A stretch of 61,394 nucleotides of DNA from a virus. Location: positions 1 through 61,394 of the IMG/VR virus record IMGVR_UViG_3300036823_000136; one strand, 5' to 3'. Position numbers and translations under genes: made by a program. A model generated the notes under the pieces. That model did not search any database, was not told the origin of the DNA, and saw only the letters and a list, made by a program, of their open reading frames with translations. This document shows positions 4,737 through 30,775 of the stretch, piece after piece; position 1 is the first letter of the stretch, and the number at the start of each line of letters is the position of its first letter.

Positions 4737-7351
4737 CGGGGTGCCCTTCGCTCGATCCAAGCTCGCTGGACCTCGACGATACGGTCCCGCTCCGCAGTGG
4801 CGCGCTGGCTCCACGTGCCCGTCCGGCCAGCCGCTTCGTCGAGCCCGGCGAGCACGCGCTCGTGGTGCGCCGCCGGTGAATCCGGCAGGTCGGCCATCAG
4901 CGCGATGTCGTCGGCATCGTCCAGCGCCCAGGCGTAGACGGTGTCGCACATGCAGCCCGCGTGGTCGCCGGGCTTGAGGTGCGTCCCTACCCATTCGGCC
5001 GCTGGCGGGGAGATCAGGGCCGGGTCCTCGAACCCCTCGAACTTGCGGCCGGCCAGGTTCAGGTGAGGCTCGAAGGCGTTGGACCTCGGCGTGATGCCGT
5101 AGCGCCAGGTGAACCCGATCCGCTCCGCGTGGGTGTCAACGGCGCGGAGCAGGTCGCCGCCCAGCGCGATCCCGCCCGGCCCGGCGTGCGGCCCGCCGAT
5201 TTCGGCCAGCGCTTCGCGGATGTCGCCCGGCAGGATCACCGAGTCCGGCACCTCGCCGCGGAGCTGGTCGCCGTGACGGCCGTACATGGCGTCCGTGGCG
5301 CGCGAGCGGAGCGTGCCTTCGAGCTTCTTCCAGGCCGCGGGGATGCGGTCGGTCATGGCCTGGGTGAGCGCGGCCACTGCGGTGAGCGGCAGGCCGACCA
5401 TGCCGGCGACGGTCTTCACCGAGGCCTTGATCGTGGCCGCCGACCACTGCGCGAACTTGCTGGCCAGGTAGGAGAACGCCAGCGTGAGCAGCACGTCCTC
5501 GGTGAGCCCCAGCTCGGTGACGCGCACCTGGCCCAGCGTCCGGCCGGCCAGCGCGGGCGGCACGTCCTTCAGCTCCGCGGCCAGGGCGGTGAACTTCCGG
5601 CCCTGGACCTGGGCCTTGATCTTGGCGCCCGCCTTCTCCAGGGCCCGCTGGAGGTCAGCTTCAGCGGTCGCCCGGATGCGCTCGATGAGGTCGTGATCGA
5701 GGTCGGCCAGCCGATCACCCGTGATGATCTTTACTGAATCGAGTACTCCCTGCGAACCTGCCGCACTTGCGACCCTGGCGCCGGGCGGTGCCGCCTGTGG
5801 AGTTCCCTGGGGCGGCGCGGCCTGACCTGGGCCGACCTGCTTGACCGGCGCGGAGGTGATGACCGGCGGCGTGCCGGGCACGGCGGGCGGCTGGATCGGG
5901 TTGCCGTTGGAGTCCAGGATGCGATCGTTGTTCGGGATGATCGCCTTCACCCCGAGGATCTCCGCGGCGATCTGGGTCAGTGTGTTCGGGTCCGGCCTCG
6001 TCGCCTTGATCATCATGATCTGCTGGAGGTCTTCTTCCTGCGGGGCGTCGTCCTCGCCGAAGCCCTTCGCCGTGCGGTAGGCCTTGAAGCTGATGGCGCC
6101 CCGGTCCATCGCCTGGTCAGCGTCCTGTGAACGGTTCGCGTTCTCCGTCAGGTTGCCCGCGGCGTACCACAGGCGGACGCTCTTGGCCTCCTCCTTGGTC
6201 AGCCCGTAGCCGCCGTCGTCCACCGACAGCATCAGCATGCGGCGGAACCAGGAGTTCGTCAGCGAGTCGACGATCAGCCGGCACGTGGGCTCAAGGTGGT
6301 TCTTGAAGGCCTGGGCATCGATCAGCCACGCCGTCCAGTGGTTCGCGTCCTGGATGCCCCGCATGGCCTGACTCGGCAGGTCGATGCTGTCGCCGACGCG
6401 GTCCAGGTTGCGCGACAGCCGGTTCATCAGCTCGTCGTCGGTCTCCCGGACGAACGGAATGTGCCTGATTTCCTTACCGTCCTCAGCCTCACCCTGGATC
6501 AGGATCGGCACCACGGCGGACGGGTGGCCCTCGTTGTTGATCGGCTGAGTCGCGGCCGTGGTGAAGCCGGACAGGAAGGAGTCGTTCTCCGGGGTCGCGG
6601 TGGGCTCGCCGTCGCGGACCATCGAGCAGCCCGACGGGATGAACAGAATGCCGTTCGAGGCAATGCGGCTCAGGCTCGCGGCCCGGATCTCCCGGCCGGC
6701 CAGCACGATCTCCTCGCACACGTCGAGCAGAGCCCGGAGCGCGGAGTCGGCCAGCTCGTCGTACTCGGGGTGCGGAACCCACAGCCGGATGAGGACTTCG
6801 CCGGAGTCCGGCTTCACCTCGCGGGCGCCGCGGCCCGGAACCTCGATGATCCCCAGTCCCCCGCCGACGGACGGCACGACCTCGCTCGTCGAGCGCACTG
6901 TCCATCGCTCGTCGCCGAAATGGTCCTTGCGCATGTGCAGCCAGCACTCGCCGGCCACGTCGAACCCCTGGACCATCCGGCCGATGAAGCCGTAGCCGTC
7001 CTCCCAGGGAAGCCGCTGGGCACAGTCCACAGCGGCGGCGGCGATGCGCTCATCGACGTAGGCGTGGCCGTCTTCGTCCTTGTCCTGGTCCGGCTCGCCA
7101 GTGAGCACCTTGGGCTCGTCGGCATCCGGCACGACGGCCGCCGCGGTGAACTGGACCTTGGCGATGAGCTGACCCTTCATCCGCAGGGCGCCGCCCAGCT
7201 CGCCGATCGAGTTCCGGTAGTTCCAGGCGAGTGCCTGCCAGGCCATGCGGGTGGCGGAAAGGGTGGCGATGGTCTCCCGGTCGTGCAGGTCGATGACCCG
7301 CCCGGACGCGGTGATGGGCGTCCGGTCCTTGCGTCGACTCCAGAGAGGCAT
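4733..7351 (-). CDS. Portal protein fused to a MuF-like minor head domain
   Basis: The 872-residue protein carries a portal-type core in the first 480 residues (WQALAWNYRNSIGELGG, FVRETDDELMNRLSRNLDRV, MRGIQDANHWTAWLIDAQAF). A proline/alanine-rich linker (PVKQVGPGQAAPPQGTPQ) leads to a C-terminal part resembling phage Mu gpF minor head proteins (EPHLNLAGRKFEGFEDP, GTHLKPGDHAGCMCDTVYAW). Portals are usually about 450-550 residues, so this is a true fusion with no internal stop. It sits about 45 kb from the capsid gene on this map, an unusual separation. Confidence 0.9.
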   Translation of the reverse strand: MPLWSRRKDRTPITASGRVIDLHDRETIATLSATRMAWQALAWNYRNSIGELGGALRMKGQLIAKVQFTAAAVVPDADEPKVLTGEPDQDKDEDGHAYVDERIAAAAVDCAQRLPWEDGYGFIGRMVQGFDVAGECWLHMRKDHFGDERWTVRSTSEVVPSVGGGLGIIEVPGRGAREVKPDSGEVLIRLWVPHPEYDELADSALRALLDVCEEIVLAGREIRAASLSRIASNGILFIPSGCSMVRDGEPTATPENDSFLSGFTTAATQPINNEGHPSAVVPILIQGEAEDGKEIRHIPFVRETDDELMNRLSRNLDRVGDSIDLPSQAMRGIQDANHWTAWLIDAQAFKNHLEPTCRLIVDSLTNSWFRRMLMLSVDDGGYGLTKEEAKSVRLWYAAGNLTENANRSQDADQAMDRGAISFKAYRTAKGFGEDDAPQEEDLQQIMMIKATRPDPNTLTQIAAEILGVKAIIPNNDRILDSNGNPIQPPAVPGTPPVITSAPVKQVGPGQAAPPQGTPQAAPPGARVASAAGSQGVLDSVKIITGDRLADLDHDLIERIRATAEADLQRALEKAGAKIKAQVQGRKFTALAAELKDVPPALAGRTLGQVRVTELGLTEDVLLTLAFSYLASKFAQWSAATIKASVKTVAGMVGLPLTAVAALTQAMTDRIPAAWKKLEGTLRSRATDAMYGRHGDQLRGEVPDSVILPGDIREALAEIGGPHAGPGGIALGGDLLRAVDTHAERIGFTWRYGITPRSNAFEPHLNLAGRKFEGFEDPALISPPAAEWVGTHLKPGDHAGCMCDTVYAWALDDADDIALMADLPDSPAAHHERVLAGLDEAAGRTGTWSQRATAERDRIVEVQRAWIERRAPR

Positions 7352-7358
7352 TTAACGA

Positions 7359-7655
7359 TCACTCCCTAGTGTCAGCGTGTTCCATCCGATCCACCAGGCC
7401 CGTGATCACCCCGGCTCCAGCTGAGGATGCCAGACCGGCGGCGGCGATGCCCCAGATGCGCGGGGCCACGGCGCGGGCAATCGCGACGCCCATCCCGACC
7501 CAGATGCTCAGGCACCAGGGGCACGTGATCAGCTCCGCGGCCTTGCGATCCCCGTACTTGATGATCAAGTCCTCGCGCTGCTTCTCGAAGATCGTGTCCG
7601 TCTGGAGCAGGCGCACGAGCCGGTACGTGGCGGCGAGGTCTACAGCCAGTTCCAC
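7359..7655 (-). CDS. DUF1360-like membrane protein
   Basis: Starting at GTG 7655, this 98-residue protein has an N-terminal amphipathic part (RLVRLLQTDTIFEKQR), the DUF1360 signature ELITCPWCLSIWVGMGV and two hydrophobic segments. DUF1360 proteins are small bacterial and phage membrane proteins of unknown function. Its start overlaps the end of the gene upstream. Confidence 0.82.
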   Translation of the reverse strand: MELAVDLAATYRLVRLLQTDTIFEKQREDLIIKYGDRKAAELITCPWCLSIWVGMGVAIARAVAPRIWGIAAAGLASSAGAGVITGLVDRMEHADTRE

Positions 7656-7768
7656 GCCTGCACCGCCCCGATGATCAGGAGCACGAAGGTCATGCCCAGG
7701 ATGAAGCCGGTCCAGCCGGCCCGCCGGATGGCGGTGTCCTCGTCCACCTCGCGTCTGTGGCCACCCAC
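7640..7768 (-). CDS. 42-residue single-TM protein
   Basis: GTG 7768 is preceded by GGGAG at suitable spacing. The product begins MGGHRREVDEDTAIRRAG and continues with one strong transmembrane segment (FILGMTFVLLIIGAVQAW). It lies in a run of three tiny membrane genes, overlapping the next gene by 16 bases. Likely a phage membrane effector or holin-like helper; no family recognised. Confidence 0.75.
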   Translation of the reverse strand: MGGHRREVDEDTAIRRAGWTGFILGMTFVLLIIGAVQAWNWL

Positions 7769-7774
7769 GCATGA

Positions 7775-7891
7775 TCATCTCCCGTCGTTCTTGCGCTTGC
7801 CGACGATCCCCATGACCCAGCCGGAGTACAGCCACAGGCCGATGGTGAGCACGGCAAAGGCGACGAACCCGACCCACGTCCCGGCGCTCAC
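7775..7891 (-). CDS. 38-residue single-TM protein
   Basis: GTG 7891 overlaps the stop of the SLOG-family gene (GTGA). The product starts MSAGTWVGFVAFAVLTIG, has one transmembrane helix and a short basic tail (GKRKNDGR). It is coupled to its neighbours by overlap and short spacing. Function unknown. Confidence 0.75.
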   Translation of the reverse strand: MSAGTWVGFVAFAVLTIGLWLYSGWVMGIVGKRKNDGR

Positions 7892-8283
7892 GGCCTGCCG
7901 CACAGTTCCGCGGGTGCCGGGCGCTCCTGCACGACCAGCCACAGTCCGGCCTCACGGGCACGGTTGAGCGCGTCGTTCGTACCGCGGGACACGCCCTCGC
8001 CGTAGAGCACGAAGCCCAGGACGATGTCCGGCATGTGGTCCACAAGCAGCTGATTGCGCGCCAGCATCTGGTAGGCCTTCAAGCCCTGCGAGCGGATCAC
8101 GTGCAGGTTGTTGTCCGTCATGTTCTCCCGCCACCACGAGGCCGCGATCTCGTCGGCGCCGGAGGGGCAGTCCCCGACGTACAGCCGCGCGCCCGGGAGG
8201 TCGGGGCCGATGGCCGCCTGGAGCGCGGACCAGACGGCCAGCTTGTCTCCCCAGTGGCGCGAGCCGGTCACCATGATCTTCAC
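7888..8283 (-). CDS. SLOG-family (YspA-like, DUF2493) nucleotide-binding protein
   Basis: The 131-residue protein has the N-terminal strand-loop MKIMVTGSRHWGDK, then LYVGDCPSGADEIAASWW and a C-terminal Rossmann-like half (DIVLGFVLYGEGVSRGTNDA). These fit the SLOG superfamily, whose members bind nucleotides or nucleotide-derived ligands such as signalling molecules. Phages often carry such genes, but the ligand is unknown. Start and stop overlap both neighbours. Confidence 0.85.
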   Translation of the reverse strand: MKIMVTGSRHWGDKLAVWSALQAAIGPDLPGARLYVGDCPSGADEIAASWWRENMTDNNLHVIRSQGLKAYQMLARNQLLVDHMPDIVLGFVLYGEGVSRGTNDALNRAREAGLWLVVQERPAPAELCGRP

Positions 8284-10490: not shown

Positions 10491-10506
10491 CCCCCAGAAT
10501 GGGGGG
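10491..10506. promoter_or_regulatory. Orphan C5-N5-G6 palindrome
   Basis: CCCCC AGAAT GGGGGG lies in the 10292-10564 gap. Leftward, a TAACCT about 5 bases beyond the run could be a -10. Rightward CAACAT is possible. No clear gene starts on either side: leftward the next element is the terminator at 10342-10376, about 110 bases away. Confidence 0.5.
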
Positions 10507-11827: not shown

Positions 11828-12205
11828 TCATCCTTTCCGGGTTTTCGGGTCAGCCGGCGGGCGCTCCGGACCGTGGAGCGGCTCCTGCCTCAGCCAGCGG
11901 AGATTGCGCTCCATCAGGCCACCCCACACGCCGTAGTGCGAGGCGTCCGGGTGGTTGATGGCGTACTCCAGGCAGCGCACGCGCACTGGGCAGCGGAAAC
12001 ACAGGGCTCGCGCCTTCCGATCGGCGTTGCTGACCTTGGCGCCCTCGGCGACGAAGTAGAACTCCGGGCCGACCTCGGCGCACAGCGCGCCGGGAAATCC
12101 GAACCCGCGGTCCACGTCCAGCCTGCGGGCGAGGACGGCGACCGCCCGGGAGTTCAGCGCGGGGTACGACGAGCTGGCGCCGCCGTTGCGGCCTGGACGG
12201 ATCAT
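11828..12205 (-). CDS. WhiB-family Fe-S transcriptional regulator
   Basis: The 125-residue protein has the WhiB pattern: an isolated cysteine (GALCAEVGPEFYF), then C-x2-C-x5-C (LCFRCPVRVRCLEYA) and the G-V-W-G-G turn (HYGVWGGLMERNLR), plus a basic tail. WhiB proteins bind a [4Fe-4S] cluster and act with the primary sigma factor. Actinophages use them to alter host or phage transcription and some mediate superinfection immunity. It is a plausible but untested candidate regulator of the palindrome promoters. The ATG overlaps the previous stop. Confidence 0.92.
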   Translation of the reverse strand: MIRPGRNGGASSSYPALNSRAVAVLARRLDVDRGFGFPGALCAEVGPEFYFVAEGAKVSNADRKARALCFRCPVRVRCLEYAINHPDASHYGVWGGLMERNLRWLRQEPLHGPERPPADPKTRKG

Positions 12206-12989: not shown

Positions 12990-13076
12990 TCAGCGGTGAG
13001 GACAGTTCGGGCCGTGGCCCTCGTTCGGGAACCGGCCGCAGGTCCCGCATTGCTGCGGGTGCTTCGCCCTGCTCAC
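12990..13076 (-). CDS. 28-residue zinc-finger-like mini-protein
   Basis: GTG 13076 overlaps the stop of the Ltp-like gene (GTGA). The product contains CGTCGRFPNEGHGPNCPH, a C-x2-C-x12-C-x-H cluster. This is a typical compact zinc site in phage mini-proteins. Function unknown; short length makes it less certain than its neighbours. Confidence 0.65.
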   Translation of the reverse strand: MSRAKHPQQCGTCGRFPNEGHGPNCPHR

Positions 13077-13687
13077 TTGCACGCCGCCGTCTGGTGCGCG
13101 CCGTACGTGGCCTGGACCTTGGTGAACTGGTCCCCGGCCTTGGACGACAGCTGGCCGATGAGCCCGGTGCACGAGAACGACGTGAAGTCGAGGTACTCCT
13201 GAGCCGACTTCGCCGCTTGCGCGTTCCAGTCCACGCCCAGGCTGTCCACGGCCTGGGTCGCCACGTCCTGCGGGTAGCCGTCGCCCGCCTTCGAGGACAG
13301 CTGTCCGACCAGGCCATCGTGAGAGAAGGCCTTGAACCCCAGGTAGGACTGCGCGGAGTCGCGCGCCTGCTGGACCTGGGGCGGGAACTCCGGCGCCTGG
13401 GTAACCGGCGCGGCGGTGGCGCTGTCGGCGGTCCCCGGGAGCTTGGCCCACTCGCATGTGTAGGGGTCCCAGGCCACCGAGCTGCCGTCGGCGGGCGGCG
13501 TCGGCGCGCCCTTGGGCTCCGGGCAGACGGAGGTGGGCGCGGTGGGCGCCGCCGGGCTCGCGGCCGGAGTGGCGCCGCCCGTCACGCTGATGACGATCCC
13601 GAGGACGACGAGGCCGCCGACAATCGCGCCGGTGATCTTCAGGCCACGGTGCTTCTTCTTGGGCTTCGGCTGGATGGGGTAGGACAT
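13073..13687 (-). CDS. Ltp-like superinfection-exclusion protein, TM-anchored
   Basis: The 204-residue protein has a basic N-terminus, one transmembrane segment (ITGAIVGGLVVLGIVISVTG), a Pro/Ala/Thr-rich extracytoplasmic stalk and two tandem helix-turn-helix-like repeats. These contain SAQSYLGFKAFSHDGLVGQL and SAQEYLDFTSFSCTGLIGQL. Such repeats define the host-surface Ltp family, named for the lipoprotein of Streptococcus phage TP-J34 that blocks DNA entry of other phages. Here no lipobox is seen; the anchor is a signal-anchor helix. Superinfection exclusion is inferred from the family. Confidence 0.85.
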   Translation of the reverse strand: MSYPIQPKPKKKHRGLKITGAIVGGLVVLGIVISVTGGATPAASPAAPTAPTSVCPEPKGAPTPPADGSSVAWDPYTCEWAKLPGTADSATAAPVTQAPEFPPQVQQARDSAQSYLGFKAFSHDGLVGQLSSKAGDGYPQDVATQAVDSLGVDWNAQAAKSAQEYLDFTSFSCTGLIGQLSSKAGDQFTKVQATYGAHQTAACK

Positions 13688-14288: not shown

Positions 14289-14510
14289 TCAGAAGTCGCT
14301 CTCCTCCAGCTCCGCGACGCTCCACGTGTCGCCGTTGGGCGTGACCCGCCACATCCCCTTTTCCTGCTCGACGTGCTCGACATCGACCGGGGTCGTCTCG
14401 GTGATCAGCTTGTAGATCAAGTCCTTGAAGTCCTCCACCGTCAGCTTGTCCTCGAAGAAGGTGAAGAAGTCGAAGAGCTGGGCGACGTTGAAGTTCTGAG
14501 CTGAGAGCAT
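14289..14510 (-). CDS. Small acidic protein
   Basis: ATG 14510 is preceded by GGAGG, so the 73-residue product starts MLSAQNFNVAQLFDFFTFFE. A GTG at 14540 in the same frame is an alternative leaderless start. The protein is acidic and helical with a C-terminal WSVAELEESDF. No family recognised. It is the only gene between two palindrome promoters and opposite the rightward transfer cassette, so a regulatory role is possible. Confidence 0.75.
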   Translation of the reverse strand: MLSAQNFNVAQLFDFFTFFEDKLTVEDFKDLIYKLITETTPVDVEHVEQEKGMWRVTPNGDTWSVAELEESDF

Positions 14511-14541
14511 CCGGGGCCTCCGTGGTCTGTGTGTGAACACA

Positions 14542-14570
14542 GTCTATCCCCCCATTATGGGGGGACACAA
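14542..14570 (-). promoter_or_regulatory. Spacer-palindrome promoter (leftward, divergent)
   Basis: Minus strand: -35 TTGTGT, spacer CCCCCCATAATGGGGGG, -10 ATAGAC. It lies about 60 bases from the rightward promoter of the transfer cassette, forming a divergent control region. Confidence 0.8.
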
Positions 14571-14621: not shown

Positions 14622-14650
14622 GGCTGTACCCCCAAGATGGGGGGTGAGAT
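14622..14650 (+). promoter_or_regulatory. Spacer-palindrome promoter of the transfer cassette
   Basis: Plus strand: GGCTGT, 17-bp spacer ACCCCCAAGATGGGGGG, -10 TGAGAT. The -35 is weak. One of the three in-frame ATGs that follow (14649, 14652, 14661) is the start of the first gene; 14661 fits a nearly leaderless mRNA. Confidence 0.65.
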
Positions 14651-14660
14651 GATGAGACGC

Positions 14661-14837
14661 ATGAGACTTCGACTGCTCGTGGCCGGACTGGTCCTCGCGG
14701 GGATCGCCGGCACGCTGGCCGGCCAGTTGCCCCTCGTGGCCGCCGGCCTCATCGTCCTGTACGTCATCTCGATGTTCGTCCGGGACCACCTCCGCCGAAA
14801 GCGCGGCGGCTGGTCCGGCGGACGCGACCGGTACTGA
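14661..14837 (+). CDS. Small two-TM membrane protein of the transfer cassette
   Basis: About 58 residues starting MRLRLLVAGLVLAG, with two hydrophobic helices separated by a short loop and a basic tail (FVRDHLRRKRGGWSGGRDR). The topology recalls the small Spd/TraA-type spread proteins of actinomycete plasmids. This match rests on topology and position next to a DUF2637 and TraB/FtsK-like gene, not on sequence identity. Confidence 0.75.
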   Translation: MRLRLLVAGLVLAGIAGTLAGQLPLVAAGLIVLYVISMFVRDHLRRKRGGWSGGRDRY

Positions 14838-14847
14838 AGGGATCGAC

Positions 14848-15918
14848 ATGAACCGCCTGCCTGCCCTCTCCGTCGCCCGGCTCCGCATCTTCGCCGGGCT
14901 CACCATCGCCGCCGCCGCCGCGATCAGCTTCGAGTCGATCCGGCACCTCGCCGTCATCGGCGGCTTCGGGACGCTGGCCATCCTCTTCCCGCTCACCCTC
15001 GACGCGGTCGCCGCGTACGGCATGGACCTGTGGGTCCGCCGGTCCCCCGCCGCGCGCCAGGCGAAGTGGCTCGCGCTGTCGGCCATCTTCGGGTCGCTCG
15101 TCGCGAACGTCGTGGACCACTGGCTCACCCAGCGCGCGGTCCTGGGCGCGGTCCTGGGCGCGGTCCCGCCGGGCATGCTGGCCGCGCTGCTCGCCGTCGC
15201 GCACAAGCACGCGAGCGGTACCGAGGACCAAGCGGTCCCGTTCGACCCGGCGGTCCGGGACGCGGTCTGGTCCGCGCTGCCGCAAGCGGACCGTCGCGTG
15301 GTCCCGCCGCCGGACCGCTACGTGGTACCGAGCGAAGTTCTCGCGCTCGCGGTACCAACCGTTGGACCGCTGGACGCAATGGCGGACTTCCGGTCCCACG
15401 AAGACAAGTTCTGGTCCAAGGTAGAAATGGGCGGTCCGGAGGAGTGTTGGCCGTTCGTCGGGTCCCGGACCCCTGAGGGGTACGGGAAGTTCACGATCGG
15501 GGACCGCACGTACCGGGCCCACCGCATCGCCTGGTCCATCGCTACTAACCAGGTGGTCTCGGGGGATCTGATGGTTCGCCATCTCAAGTGCGACAACCCG
15601 CCGTGCTGCAACCCCGCACACCTGGCTGAAGGCACCGCGGCTGATAACGCGGCCGATCGCGTCCAACGTCTCGCGAAGCTGGAGGTCGTCCAGTCGCTCG
15701 ACGCCAAAATCATGGAGCGGAGCACCCGCCGGACCAGCGCCGCGCGGACCCCCAATCCCGCGGTCCGGCGGACCACCTCCGCCACGGTCCACAGCGACAG
15801 CGACATCGTCACCTGGATCAAGGACCAGCCCAGCCCCACGAAGCGCGCCGTCATGGCGAAGTACTCGGTCGGCTCCGGCCGCGCGCTCCGTCTCATCTCG
15901 CAGGCCAAGGAGGTCTGA
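14848..15918 (+). CDS. DUF2637 membrane protein with an internal HNH nuclease domain
   Basis: The 356-residue protein starts behind GAAGGGAT. Residues 1-115 form a DUF2637 module with about four transmembrane helices (FAGLTIAAAAAISFESIRHL, PLTLDAVAAYGMDLWVRRS, VLGAVPPGMLAALLAVAHK). Residues about 170-275 carry an HNH domain (FWSKVEMGGPEECWPFVG, AHRIAWSIATNQVVSGDL, HLKCDNPPCCNPAHLAEG). Residues about 310-356 resume with a small HTH-like tail (MAKYSVGSGRALRLISQAKE). DUF2637 proteins accompany transfer genes in actinomycete plasmids and AICEs. The HNH domain looks like an in-frame insertion. Confidence 0.88.
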   Translation: MNRLPALSVARLRIFAGLTIAAAAAISFESIRHLAVIGGFGTLAILFPLTLDAVAAYGMDLWVRRSPAARQAKWLALSAIFGSLVANVVDHWLTQRAVLGAVLGAVPPGMLAALLAVAHKHASGTEDQAVPFDPAVRDAVWSALPQADRRVVPPPDRYVVPSEVLALAVPTVGPLDAMADFRSHEDKFWSKVEMGGPEECWPFVGSRTPEGYGKFTIGDRTYRAHRIAWSIATNQVVSGDLMVRHLKCDNPPCCNPAHLAEGTAADNAADRVQRLAKLEVVQSLDAKIMERSTRRTSAARTPNPAVRRTTSATVHSDSDIVTWIKDQPSPTKRAVMAKYSVGSGRALRLISQAKEV

Positions 15919-16530
15919 TCATGGCCAAGCAGCCAGGCGGACTGAACATCGTCCGTGACGTTCTCTGGGTGAAGTTCGCCCTGTGGATCGGCGCCAAGCT
16001 CGGTCGAACCGGGCGGCGTCTCGTGTTCCGCTGGCGTCGCGTCCTCTCGCCGGTCATCTTCGCGACGCTCCTGTGGGCGGTCGCGGCCATCTGGAACTTG
16101 ACCTTCCCCGAGTGGTGCTGGCTCGCGCTCGTGATCCCGGCCGCCGGTGGGACCGTCGCGTGGTTCGGACCGGTGCTGTCGGAACGGTGGTCCCTCATCG
16201 TCACGAAGCTGGTCCCGACCGGACTGGACCGCGGACGGTCCGGGGTGCTGGACCGCCTGATCGAGCGGGCCTACTTCGCCGGTCTCAGTACCACCATCGG
16301 CGGGTACCTGTTCATCCGGTCCGGCTGGGGCGGATCGGACCTCACGCTGTGGTGGTGGCGCGTGGGACTGGTCCTGTTCGGCGGCGCGTGGTGGTACCAC
16401 CGCCGGGTCCGGATGGCTGGGCGCGGGGACCGCGTCGCGCGGCGCTGGGGCCGGATCAACGAGGGCCGGACCAACAGCCGGCTGGCGCCGCTGATCGGGT
16501 CCAAACCCGTCGAGGTTCACGGCCGCGGTC
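15001..16530. repeat. Dense GGACC/GGTCC motif cluster
   Basis: By eye there are about 40 occurrences of GGACC or GGTCC (reverse complements of each other) here. They are concentrated in three patches at about 15020-15540, 15730-15830 and 16150-16530. A random 65% GC sequence would give roughly six. They overlap coding sequence of the DUF2637-HNH and translocase genes. They may be recognition sites for the translocase or another DNA-binding protein, or reflect unusual codon use. Confidence 0.55.
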
Positions 16531-17840
16531 CGGTGACGGTCATGAAGATCAAGCTCGCGGAGGCTCTCACCCTCGCGGACATGTCTCGTCTCGTCGAGCC
16601 GCTCGCGAGCTACTACGGGATTCGGCCGCGGGCGATCAAGCCGCGCGAGGACCACGGCAACGCCCGGTACGTCTGGCTCACTTTCCTGCCGACCGACCCG
16701 TGGAAGCACGAGCTGCCGCACCCGGCGCCAGCTGTCGGCTCGATCTCGATCGCCAAGACGAAGGGGAAGATCCTCGTCGGGATCAAGGCCGACGGCGAAG
16801 AGCAGTCGTGGATCGTGCAGCACGCGGGCCTGTACGGCAAGACGCGGTCCGGAAAGTCGGGATTGATCCACTCCCTGCTGATGTGGATCTCCGCCTACAC
16901 GGACGCGATCGCCGTCGGCATCGACATGGCCGGCGGAGCCACGCTGGGCGCCTGGCAGCCGATGTTCGCGCGGCCGATCGCCACGAACCTCGACGAGGCG
17001 ATCGTGCTGCTGGAGCGCGTGCTCGCATTCATCCAGGTCAGGGAGCGTGCGATCGGCGCCGACGACTTCGAGGACGACATCTTCGAGCCGTCCGACGAGT
17101 TCCCGTGGTTGTTCCTGGTCATCGACGAGTTCCCGAACCTCTTCACCGCGGCGAAGGCGGCCGGGCAGATGGGCGATGGGCCGAACGCGAAGAGCTACTT
17201 CAAGTACGTCGTGGGCCTGCTCGACCAGATCGCCAAGCAGGCGGCCAAGACGGGGACGATCTTGGTTGAGGGTGCCCAGAACCCGACGAAGGACGACAAC
17301 GGCTCGAAGGAGTTCCAGGCCCAGCTCCGTTCGACCTTCGGCTTGGGGCTCGACGAATTGCAGTCGCGCAACCTGTGGGGCGTCAAAGAGCGCCTGGGCT
17401 GGACCGGCACTGACCTGGCCAAAGGCCAGTACCGGCTGCACGACGACGACCACACCGTCCCCGAGGTCGCCAAGGGGTACTGGGTCCCGAAGCACCAGCG
17501 CAAGAAGCAGGCCGCCGCCGCCGCGAAGCTGCGCAAGTGCGCGGAGCCGACGGCCTGGGCGGCGCTGATGGGCGTGGACGCGCCGGTCATCGACGCCATC
17601 AGCATCTCCAGCGCGCCGGCCGACCGCGTGCTGGCCGCCCTGCTCGACGGGCCGATGAAGGTCGTTCCCGAGCTGGTCGACGCCTCCGGGCTCAGCAAGG
17701 CCCAGGTGTACCGCCGGCTCAACGGCCACGGCGAGGCTGGCCTGGTCCACCGGCTGGAGGACTACCGCTACCAGCTCACGGACGCGGGCCGGGCGTTCCT
17801 GCGCGGCGAGGACCCGGGCACCTGGAAGCGAGTCTCATGA
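15921..17840 (+). CDS. TraB/FtsK-like DNA translocase with C-terminal winged helix
   Basis: The 639-residue protein has hydrophobic segments in the first 160 residues (VIFATLLWAVAAIWNL, TVAWFGPVL, VGLVLFGGAWWYH). A RecA-like motor follows, with Walker A GLYGKTRSGKSGLIHS and Walker B WLFLVIDEFPNLF. Residues about 560-639 form a winged helix (LVDASGLSKAQVYRRLNGHG). The layout matches FtsK and Streptomyces TraB, whose winged helix reads short repeated DNA motifs and which moves double-stranded plasmid DNA between mycelial cells. In a phage it could serve conjugal spread, partition or DNA handling. It follows the DUF2637 gene by 2 bases. Confidence 0.88.
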   Translation: MAKQPGGLNIVRDVLWVKFALWIGAKLGRTGRRLVFRWRRVLSPVIFATLLWAVAAIWNLTFPEWCWLALVIPAAGGTVAWFGPVLSERWSLIVTKLVPTGLDRGRSGVLDRLIERAYFAGLSTTIGGYLFIRSGWGGSDLTLWWWRVGLVLFGGAWWYHRRVRMAGRGDRVARRWGRINEGRTNSRLAPLIGSKPVEVHGRGPVTVMKIKLAEALTLADMSRLVEPLASYYGIRPRAIKPREDHGNARYVWLTFLPTDPWKHELPHPAPAVGSISIAKTKGKILVGIKADGEEQSWIVQHAGLYGKTRSGKSGLIHSLLMWISAYTDAIAVGIDMAGGATLGAWQPMFARPIATNLDEAIVLLERVLAFIQVRERAIGADDFEDDIFEPSDEFPWLFLVIDEFPNLFTAAKAAGQMGDGPNAKSYFKYVVGLLDQIAKQAAKTGTILVEGAQNPTKDDNGSKEFQAQLRSTFGLGLDELQSRNLWGVKERLGWTGTDLAKGQYRLHDDDHTVPEVAKGYWVPKHQRKKQAAAAAKLRKCAEPTAWAALMGVDAPVIDAISISSAPADRVLAALLDGPMKVVPELVDASGLSKAQVYRRLNGHGEAGLVHRLEDYRYQLTDAGRAFLRGEDPGTWKRVS

Positions 17841-17915
17841 TCTCGTCTCGTCCGGGACGCACGTAACGCGCAGACGGGCGAGAATCCCCTGAGAATATCG
17901 CAAAAGTGAGACGGT

Positions 17916-17939
17916 CTAACCCCCATTACGGGGGGTTAG
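17916..17939. promoter_or_regulatory. 24-bp perfect palindrome after the translocase gene
   Basis: CTAACCCCC ATTACG GGGGGTTAG is the longest member of the palindrome family. Rightward it offers TAGATT as -10, but only a terminator follows within about 20 bases. Leftward TTAGAC could start an RNA antisense to the translocase 3' end. It is not beside a gene start. Bases 17841-17915 hold nothing else recognisable. Confidence 0.65.
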
Positions 17940-17953
17940 ATTGGGACAAAACA

Positions 17954-17989
17954 AGGCCCCCGGAGCGGATATTCTCGCTCCGGGGGCCT
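17954..17989. terminator. Bidirectional intrinsic terminator
   Basis: A perfect 14-bp stem (AGGCCCCCGGAGCG and its complement) with an 8-nt loop, followed by T-rich sequence on both strands, separates the rightward transfer cassette from the leftward operon ending at 18013. Confidence 0.9.
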
Positions 17990-18809: not shown

Positions 18810-19167
18810 TACCGTCTTCCTCTCCCACGATCGACGCGTAGTGGTAGTGCGGGTCCATCGCCTGGCGCACGCACTTGTAGACCTCGCTGGGGTGGTGGTC
18901 CGGGTTCAGAAACGTGATCTCGTCGAGCGCGGACTGAGCGGCCTCAGCGGTGTCGTAGACCGGCTTGCCGGAGTAGTGGCACAGGGCGATCCGCGCGTAC
19001 CCGGCGGACCAGTCCATCCGGCCGTAGCGCATGACCACGTCGCGGCGCTGGGTGCCGCCCTGGTTCTCCGCCCAGTACGCCTGGCCTTCAGGCTTGTAGT
19101 GCTGGCGGCGGCGGTCCGCTCGCTTCCTGTTCAGGCGGTTGGACTGGCTCGATCCGGACCTTCTCAT
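18796..19167 (-). CDS. Hypothetical basic N-terminal protein
   Basis: ATG 19167 overlaps the stop of the membrane hydrolase gene (ATGA). The 123-residue product starts with a strongly basic stretch (MRRSGSSQSNRLNRKRADRR), possibly nucleic-acid binding, then YARIALCHYSGKPVYDTAEA and a histidine-rich C-terminal part (DPHYHYASIVGEED). Unknown function. Confidence 0.72.
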   Translation of the reverse strand: MRRSGSSQSNRLNRKRADRRRQHYKPEGQAYWAENQGGTQRRDVVMRYGRMDWSAGYARIALCHYSGKPVYDTAEAAQSALDEITFLNPDHHPSEVYKCVRQAMDPHYHYASIVGEEDGNAAF

Positions 19168-19916
19168 CGTGAGGCCTCCAGGAGTGCGACGACCGGCGTC
19201 CACCAGGGCGCGCCGTAGGCGATCAGGGTCAGCGCGCCGATGGCTCCGGTGAGCACGGCGAAAGCGCTGGTGGCGATGCGCTCGCCGGTGAACATCGGCT
19301 TGCGCTTGAGCACGACGTGCTTGTCCGAGAACGGGATCTTGACCTTCTCGCCCTTGCGGACGCCACCGGCGCGGAACCGCATCCACCGCGGGAAGCCCAC
19401 GGTGGCCCAGCGTTTGCCATCCATGACGACGAGCGGGCATAGCGGGTGCGGCACGCCGGACAGCGTGCAGGCGTCCCCGATGAACCAGATGTGACAGAGG
19501 CACCCGACGGTGAAGGCGAGCGCCCACATCGGCGCCAGCGCGACGTGACCGGCGAGCAGCCCCGCGTACACGGCGCCGCCGGTGAGCAGCGTCCCGAAAT
19601 TCGTGTGCGTGAACGTGCGGTGGACGGCCTCCGGCTTGTCCTTCTCGGTGCGGGTGGCCTGGTAGACAACGTGGCTGATCCACATGAACAGCTTGTTGAG
19701 CAGCCAGCTGACCGGCCCCGCCACCTTCGATATGAAAGCGGGCGGGTGGTCGATGTCCGGCCACAGCGCACCGATGCCGACGATGGCTGAGTACGCCACC
19801 GTGCGCGCGACGGCGGTAGCCGGAGTGGCGGGCCCGCTCGTGGTCAGTTCGAGCGCCAGCGGCGCCGTGAGCAGCCCGGCGGCCACGCCGGAGAGGAAGT
19901 GGCCTTTCGCCATCAT
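19164..19916 (-). CDS. YdjM/DUF457-like membrane metal-dependent hydrolase
   Basis: The 250-residue protein has several transmembrane helices and the metal-binding pattern of DUF457/YdjM proteins: KGHFLSGVAAG, LWPDIDHPPAF, HRTFTHTNFGTLL and HIWFIGDACTLSGV. Family members are inner-membrane proteins, some LexA-controlled, with a predicted hydrolase role. In phages such proteins may act on host membrane lipids. The second ATG (19913) is an alternative start. Confidence 0.82.
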   Translation of the reverse strand: MMAKGHFLSGVAAGLLTAPLALELTTSGPATPATAVARTVAYSAIVGIGALWPDIDHPPAFISKVAGPVSWLLNKLFMWISHVVYQATRTEKDKPEAVHRTFTHTNFGTLLTGGAVYAGLLAGHVALAPMWALAFTVGCLCHIWFIGDACTLSGVPHPLCPLVVMDGKRWATVGFPRWMRFRAGGVRKGEKVKIPFSDKHVVLKRKPMFTGERIATSAFAVLTGAIGALTLIAYGAPWWTPVVALLEASR

Positions 19917-30716: not shown

Positions 30717-30743
30717 GGTGGTTACCTCCGAGGGAAAGCGTAC

Positions 30744-30775
30744 GTGCTCTCCCCCTCGTTCTGGGGGGAGGGCAC
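30744..30775. promoter_or_regulatory. Extended palindrome between helicase and peptidase genes
   Basis: CCCCC TCGTTCT GGGGGG (30751-30768) is extended outward by GTGC and GCAC with one mismatch per arm. No good -10 or -35 flanks it. It lies 5 bases past the helicase stop and 28 before the peptidase start. It may be a terminator-like hairpin or a diverged operator. Confidence 0.55.

Follow-up and report, generated by a model that had tools for sequence, protein, structure and literature searches.

Gene content of the cassette

The DNA analyzed here (the window) is the whole of IMG/VR virus record IMGVR_UViG_3300036823_000136 (61,394 bp), and between positions 14622 and 17989 it carries a rightward block of three genes, set against predicted genes that run leftward on both flanks. 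The three + strand open reading frames (ORFs; 14649/14661-14837, 14848-15918, and 15921-17840) encode, in order, a mini-protein with two transmembrane (TM) segments, a DUF2637-type membrane protein, and an FtsK/TraB-like DNA translocase. An earlier sequence-only reading of this DNA had described a block opposed to the leftward genome and had named the same three products, including a winged helix on the translocase; the gene calls bear out the first point, and the family and fold matches given below bear out the second. These matches support the view that the cassette is a plasmid-type (TraB/DUF2637) DNA translocation set carried by a phage. Two features go beyond that reading: a dense array of GGWCC sites within the coding sequence and an HNH domain inserted in the DUF2637 gene.

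The mini-protein (14661..14837, + strand) has 58 aa, or 62 aa if translation begins at an upstream ATG at 14649; its homologues measure 58 aa in relative L029 and 56-89 aa in other relatives, and searches of family libraries returned no significant match for it. The DUF2637-type protein (14848..15918, + strand; 356 aa) consists of an N-terminal TM domain, a linker, and a C-terminal helix-turn-helix (HTH) with the sequence SDSDIVTWIKDQPSPTKRAVMAKYSVGSGRALRLISQAKEV (15793..15915, + strand). The window protein has no match of its own to Pfam PF10935; however, it is 48-58% identical to family members that do match. Seven of the 10 members match this family (best E-value 7e-9), two of them with individual scores of 36.2 and 34.9 bits against a gathering cut-off of 22.8, and the plasmid proteins matched by the phage protein are all annotated DUF2637 proteins of Streptomyces. 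The DUF2637 structural model is of low overall confidence (pLDDT 48.7); in relative L038 the HTH is modeled as three helices (pLDDT ~79-88) following a disordered linker.

The translocase (15921..17840, + strand; 639 aa) has four N-terminal TM helices, placed at residues 29-61, 63-85, 113-136, and 140-164 by a model of modest pLDDT and by hydrophobicity read from the sequence, followed by a motor at residues ~170-539. The Walker A motif GKTRSGKS (residues 306-313; 16836..16859, + strand) contains four residues, G306, G311, K312, and S313, that are invariant in the family. A family match and the model place a winged helix at the C terminus (residues ~566-620; 17616..17780, + strand), with HVO_A0261_N matched at 3.5e-6 over residues 563-628. 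Against PHROG, the protein is FtsK/SpoIIIE-like (1.8e-11); the NCBIfam model plasmid_TraB matches all 10 family members (window 1.1e-7, best 1.8e-14), while Pfam FtsK_SpoIIIE is sub-threshold for the window (E 0.007) and above cut-off for relatives. The structural model is of moderate confidence (pLDDT 63), and its top match, clearly ahead of the others, is the FtsK motor (Foldseek 4.6e-10; VIA Z 17.9, root-mean-square deviation 5.7 over 334 residues); after FtsK motor domains come TcpA of pCW3 and EccC. The protein shares three features with Streptomyces-type TraB, namely an FtsK/SpoIIIE motor fold with Walker A, a C-terminal winged helix, and N-terminal membrane segments.

A GGWCC array within the DUF2637 and translocase genes

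The proposed cis-acting loading site is a dense array of GGWCC (GGACC/GGTCC, also GGTACC) at 15024..16850, supported by motif counts and a codon control. The cassette holds 52 GGWCC sites where the rest of the genome predicts 11.6, and the best 2-kb interval, with 47 sites against 7.3 expected, is the top k-mer cluster in the genome. The sites occupy the half of the DUF2637 gene that codes for the linker and continue through the initial 900 bp of the gene for the translocase. The same array is present in G001, G005, G007, G008, G009, G011, and L071.

The codon control replaced every codon by a synonymous one drawn according to the codon usage of the phage itself. Under this control, the DUF2637 and translocase genes rank first and second of all genes for GGWCC excess in three phages, with z scores of 7.1 and 3.8 in the window and of 6.7 and 3.7 or 7.5 and 4.6 in the other two. 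Pooled over seven phages, 323 sites are observed against 113 expected, with CGGTCC, CGGACC, and CGGTACC as the favored forms, and the sites spread over all three codon frames. Synonymous recoding and the use of all frames rule out, for the window family, an array produced by protein composition or codon usage. Between proteins with 45-50% amino acid identity, the position of only 5-7 of 16-25 sites is conserved and the density is retained; because positions turn over while the number stays, what is selected is GGWCC density, as a binding array needs. By these codon-level and positional comparisons, the array is kept by selection at the DNA level within the DUF2637 and translocase genes.

The array region of the window also houses the HNH endonuclease domain, which family matches place, without a frame shift, within the linker of the DUF2637 protein (limits ~15380..15690, + strand). 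The 90%-identical relative L006/L029 lacks the insert; a related HNH interrupts the corresponding linker of L035 (DUF2637 gene 6965-7993) but not that of its near-identical sister L034. The inserts of the window and L035 each contain 7 GGWCC sites in ~300 bp. From this distribution, the insert looks like a homing endonuclease residing in the array region. In both proteins the insertion has the appearance of in-frame domain homing, with no obvious intein or intron.

A distant phage suggests the membrane protein as the probable array reader

A comparable arrangement occurs in P1312, a cultured Thermobifida phage of 60 kb (PMC4569894). The motor of its ORF63 is homologous to the window translocase motor (hhalign 8e-12). 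In the adjoining ORF62, an HTH at the N terminus and a TM domain at the C terminus flank a linker whose coding sequence contains 41 GGWCC sites in 1 kb. The P1312 array reaches 48 GGWCC in 2 kb against 4.2-4.9 expected and recurs in P1312 relatives; two further viral contigs carry a pair like ORF62-ORF63. Since the P1312 linker is a low-complexity, RSG-rich protein repeat, the cluster in this phage may be explained in part by its protein sequence.

Homology links the ORF62 HTH with the HTH at the C terminus of the window DUF2637 protein (hhalign E 1.4e-5). The translocase winged helices of P1312 and the window have no similarity to each other, and the ORF62 TM domain does not match PF10935. 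Relatives L036/L037 have a diverged HTH (GVGAPRWTKI); their DUF2637 gene is free of the array, and a weaker, variant cluster is found downstream of the translocase. Because P1312 shares the HTH and not the winged helix, and because the lineage with a changed HTH lacks the array in its DUF2637 gene, the parsimonious reading is that GGWCC is read by the membrane protein, through its HTH, and not by the winged helix of the motor.

Conservation and neighbors of the cassette

A search of relatives for the cassette, proposed in the sequence-only reading as a check, recovered the three-gene block in L006/L029 (90% identity), L031-L035, L038, and L071 (45-51%), and L036/L037 (44%). Across relatives, the block is opposed to its surroundings, and after it come an HNH gene or small genes together with a member of the YdjM family. 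L036 and L037 are phage-like contigs (49 and 155 kb) that are otherwise nearly unrelated to the window, yet they carry the cassette. The recurrence of the same block, in these two as well, marks it as a conserved module rather than a chance acquisition by one genome.

The YdjM-family (PF04307) membrane hydrolase gene lies at 19164..19916 (- strand) in the window and is found in the relatives carrying the region, including the most distant, L036/L037 (~41%). A DNA cytosine-methyltransferase-like gene (DLFSGGGGASEGLKQAG), recognized by eye, lies near the cassette only in L031 (5185-6177) and L035 (5001-5993). On the other side of the window cassette, a gene at 13073-13687 encodes an Ltp-type lipoprotein (PF07553, 2.9e-25; superinfection exclusion in PHROG), which suggests a lysogen-type or early function. 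Further left, a small protein (11828-12205), with homologues in G003, G004, and other relatives, has a Cys-x2-Cys pattern (ALCFRCPVRVRCLEY) that by eye is reminiscent of WhiB regulators.

Promoter palindromes and terminator

The cassette lies between palindromes of a family that extends well beyond it. With at most one mismatch, CCCCC-N5-GGGGG gives 41 overlapping matches in the genome against 10.6 expected. These resolve into ~16 sites, 13 of which stand before genes between TTG- and TAnnnT-like hexamers, i.e., in a -35/-10 spacer. The family, TTGNNN-CCCCC-N5-GGGGG-TANNAT, is found in the window at 10491, 12926, 14225, 14549, 14629, 17920, 20277, 23192, 36508, 39594, 48915, 54308, 57140, 57538, 60527, and 60947; it occupies promoter-like spacers before most operons and recurs throughout G001, G002, G005, G007-G009, and G011. 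On this distribution, the palindromes are the phage's general promoter/operator.

At the left edge of the cassette, CCCCCAAGATGGGGGG (14629..14644, + strand) is followed directly by a -10-like TGAGAT and lies in the presumed cassette promoter. A neighboring copy, CCCCCCATTATGGGGGG (14548..14564, - strand), fills the -35/-10 spacer of a divergent leftward promoter (TTGTGT-palindrome-TAGACT) for the gene at 14289-14540. The "palindrome promoter" named earlier thus holds as a promoter containing a palindrome and fails as a cassette-specific element. The right boundary is as described, with palindrome TCTAACCCCCATTACGGGGGGTTAGA at 17916..17940 (core 17920-17935) downstream of the cassette and, between it and the opposing leftward genes, a bidirectional terminator-like hairpin (17954..17989) that folds at -36/-38 kcal/mol with z ~-7 on both strands. 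Elsewhere, at ~30740-30775, an extended inverted repeat, GTGCTCTCCCCCTCGTTCTGGGGGGAGGGCAC, lies between genes; it occupies the same place in G001 and G002, recurs in form in G008 and G011, and is a candidate terminator or variant operator.

Phage genome, host, and lifestyle

The genes of the window, nearly all leftward, include terminase, portal, major head, tape-measure, endolysin, DnaB-like helicase, SSB, Erf, and DNA-polymerase-exonuclease. At the nucleotide level, positions 1-25000 matched no phage record. Because the terminase matches Rhodococcus, Gordonia, and Mycobacterium phages (~31-36% identity) and the DUF2637/TraB matches of the cassette fall mostly in Streptomyces and allies, the host of this soil phage is most likely an actinobacterium, probably a filamentous one. 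The syntenic relative G009 (61,315 bp) has terL split over its two ends and so is a complete, circularly permuted genome of the size of the window; the completeness of the window is taken from this comparison and not from joining its own ends.

The absence of an integrase, noted in the sequence-only reading, extends to the family: neither tyrosine recombinase (PF00589) nor serine recombinase (PF00239) was found in the window or 10 relatives, complete G009 included. A ParA-type partition ATPase (PF13614) was likewise absent from all 11 records, and a pattern-based scan of limited sensitivity found no window-family relative in ~85,000 bacterial genome assemblies (GTDB contigs). On plasmids, only distant relatives of the cassette occur. 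These lifestyle data are compatible with an integrase-free temperate phage and with a lytic phage alike. Of the marks of a phage-plasmid, the family shows freedom from integrase and lacks the ParA-type ATPase; the site-specific integrase that marks actinomycete integrative and conjugative elements (AICEs) is missing from the window and 10 relatives. The identification of a TraB/DUF2637 translocation set in a phage stands, while a phage-plasmid spreading by conjugation remains a suggestion: no ParA was found, nor any relative among the assemblies scanned, and FtsK-like genes occur in many actinophages of other kinds as well.

Proposed mechanism and alternatives

We consider it probable that the cassette is a plasmid-type dsDNA translocation module whose cis-acting site is the GGWCC array. 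The DUF2637 protein would bind the array through its HTH, perhaps helped by the winged helix of the translocase, and would thereby tie phage DNA to the membrane and load the translocase hexamer, the array serving as a loading site similar to clt or a centromere. The motor could then pump phage dsDNA through a septum or at a cell contact, in the way that TraB moves clt plasmids, such that the genome would spread among the compartments of a hypha or among cells with no virion involved. The loading step of this model is likely, and it is better supported than the final destination of the DNA. For that destination, conjugation-like transfer of phage DNA is plausible, although we hold it to be somewhat short of an even chance, with partition appreciably less probable and a lytic role slightly less so again. 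More tentatively, the data raise the possibility of an actinophage lineage with virion-independent dsDNA transfer or segregation, in which a ~50-copy GGWCC cis site within the phage's own anchor and motor genes would be read by the DUF2637 HTH, with the same arrangement in P1312.

Published work on plasmids offers a precedent for such a site. Streptomyces TraB pumps dsDNA from clt, and pSVH1 TraB reads the repeated sequence GACCCGGA (PMC5133688); clt loci vary, comprise ~3-9 repeats, and can overlap tra, an overlap seen in pWTY27 (PMC3583192). SpdA2, a Spd protein, binds a site located within the gene that encodes it (PMC4170104). The GGWCC array strengthens the connection with a cis-acting loading site. 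The pSVH1 TraB recognition sequence GACCCGGA itself has no copy in the window cassette.

Several observations nevertheless weigh against this proposal. The window translocase scores 30.7 bits against the 800-bit cut-off of NF041214 plasmid_TraB, which is thus its best NCBIfam match and not an equivalog assignment. The ~3-9 repeats of known clt loci are far fewer than ~50, and no GGWCC array was found in the plasmid tra regions examined, where other clusters (GGAACA, CCGGAA, CGCGAG, GCCGC) are mostly near scan noise (control segments up to 6.2). The association of array and HTH draws on two lineages that bear the array and a third that lacks it. Most phages carrying an FtsK-like gene are not known as plasmids, and another group has guessed at a replication role for these genes (PMC11536984).

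The same components could instead serve inheritance. If the prophage were extrachromosomal, the DUF2637 protein and translocase might bind the array like a centromere and carry copies through a closing septum or into spores, as FtsK/SpoIIIE do, rather than between cells. The missing integrase, the resemblance of the genome-wide promoter palindromes to a global operator, and the exclusion lipoprotein beside the cassette would all fit, and short-repeat arrays are typical of centromeres (RedRock parS consists of eight copies of an 8-bp motif; PMC7157519). Lysogeny, however, is putative, the genes resemble those for plasmid transfer and not known partition genes, and the family has neither a ParA-type ATPase nor, within the sensitivity of the scan, a prophage or plasmid relative; we regard segregation as rather unlikely. 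That scan would also fit a lytic function, in which the membrane complex would tether or move DNA during infection, for entry, for replication at the membrane, for removal of septa to let infection spread along a hypha, or for supply of DNA to packaging. FtsK-like genes are present in many actinophages, including large Streptomyces phages and Omega-like mycobacteriophages, and P1312 is lytic in culture (PMC4569894). Yet the cassette opposes the structural genes and has its own promoter and terminator, and in P1312 the array (39-40 kb) is not tied to terL (1.5-2.8 kb), contrary to a pac site, leaving a pac assignment unsupported and a lytic role unlikely.

The two remaining explanations separate the array from DNA movement or turn the motor against foreign DNA. 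The GGWCC cluster might be unrelated to the translocase, as a by-product of the linker, a methylation or restriction feature, or an origin: part of it falls within a linker modeled as disordered, the P1312 linker is low-complexity, and L031 and L035 have a putative C5-methyltransferase gene near the cassette. We find this improbable, given that the excess survives the codon and protein control, uses all frames, and turns over at constant density, that the array runs into the conserved coding region for the translocase TM helices, and that no such methyltransferase adjoins the cassette in L032, L033, L038, or the window. As a methylation target, then, the array would have a candidate enzyme in L031 and L035 only. 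Least probable of all is a host-takeover or exclusion device in which the translocase expels or blocks incoming DNA. A weak HerA-type defense similarity and the neighboring exclusion lipoprotein point in this direction, but no PADLOC defense system is matched, with best hits that cover only the winged helix or P-loop, which leads us to reject a defense system, and an array on the phage's own genome would be unexpected for such a device.

Loading of phage DNA at the array, with subsequent pumping, thus remains the reading we favor. Well over a hundred actinophage records carry annotated FtsK-like genes of unestablished role, and the DUF2637 protein is a common but uncharacterized partner of plasmid transfer genes; the array offers a concrete, testable DNA target, with this protein named as its likely reader. 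The cultured phage P1312 makes both the loading and the pump reading testable. If the pump does move phage DNA between compartments or cells, phages would possess, in addition to virions, a means of spreading similar to that of plasmids.

Comparison with known systems

The TraB/clt systems of Streptomyces (pSVH1, pIJ101, pWTY27) share with the cassette an FtsK-type motor, TM helices, and a C-terminal winged helix. Several Streptomyces and Kitasatospora plasmids have a DUF2637 gene directly upstream of an FtsK gene or one gene off, preceded by small ORFs, and some Streptomyces plasmids likewise have short repeated sites near or inside tra. In contrast, the cassette translocase is only ~25-30% identical to Streptomyces TraB and far below the TraB equivalog cut-off, the cassette has ~50 GGWCC in coding sequence in place of ~3-9 repeats, and the genome around it is that of a phage, with genes for head, tail, and packaging. 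On the Streptomyces sp. HF10 plasmid (L043, 2342-3787), a DUF2637 gene adjoining an FtsK gene contains a CCGCGCG cluster (21 in 2 kb against 0.5; score 22) that is weakly above the codon control (z 3.0) and is possibly another array with a different motif.

Among phages, FtsK-like proteins of this kind were matched in >140 Streptomyces and Mycobacterium phage records. Large Streptomyces phages (Tomas, Yaboi) and Omega-like mycobacteriophages (Baka) also encode FtsK/SpoIIIE-family ATPases, with similarity in the motor only; unlike the window, Tomas and Baka have no DUF2637 protein annotated alongside and no GGWCC array in the stretches examined. The plasmid-prophage pZL12 (Streptomyces phage ZL12, NC_013420) is, like the window, a tailed phage genome with an FtsK/SpoIIIE-like gene, and its conjugal transfer is reported to need a major tra gene and adjacent genes (PMC3583192). 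It differs in having ParAB and an integrase/recombinase annotated, a very distant translocase (24.7% over 32%), and no comparable motif array. A TraB-like gene in a phage and a conjugative plasmid-prophage are thus already known; the coding-sequence array, its recurrence in P1312, and the DUF2637-type HTH link were not found in the open-licence papers searched, and the passages searched in the P1312 paper do not mention its array. P1312 departs from the window in having a serine recombinase and a different translocase winged helix, and from the cassette in placing the array gene downstream of the translocase, with the HTH N-terminal and the TM domain C-terminal. Its ORF62-ORF63 pair nonetheless matches the cassette in combining a homologous motor with an adjoining TM and HTH protein whose linker is coded by GGWCC, in a genome of ~60 kb.

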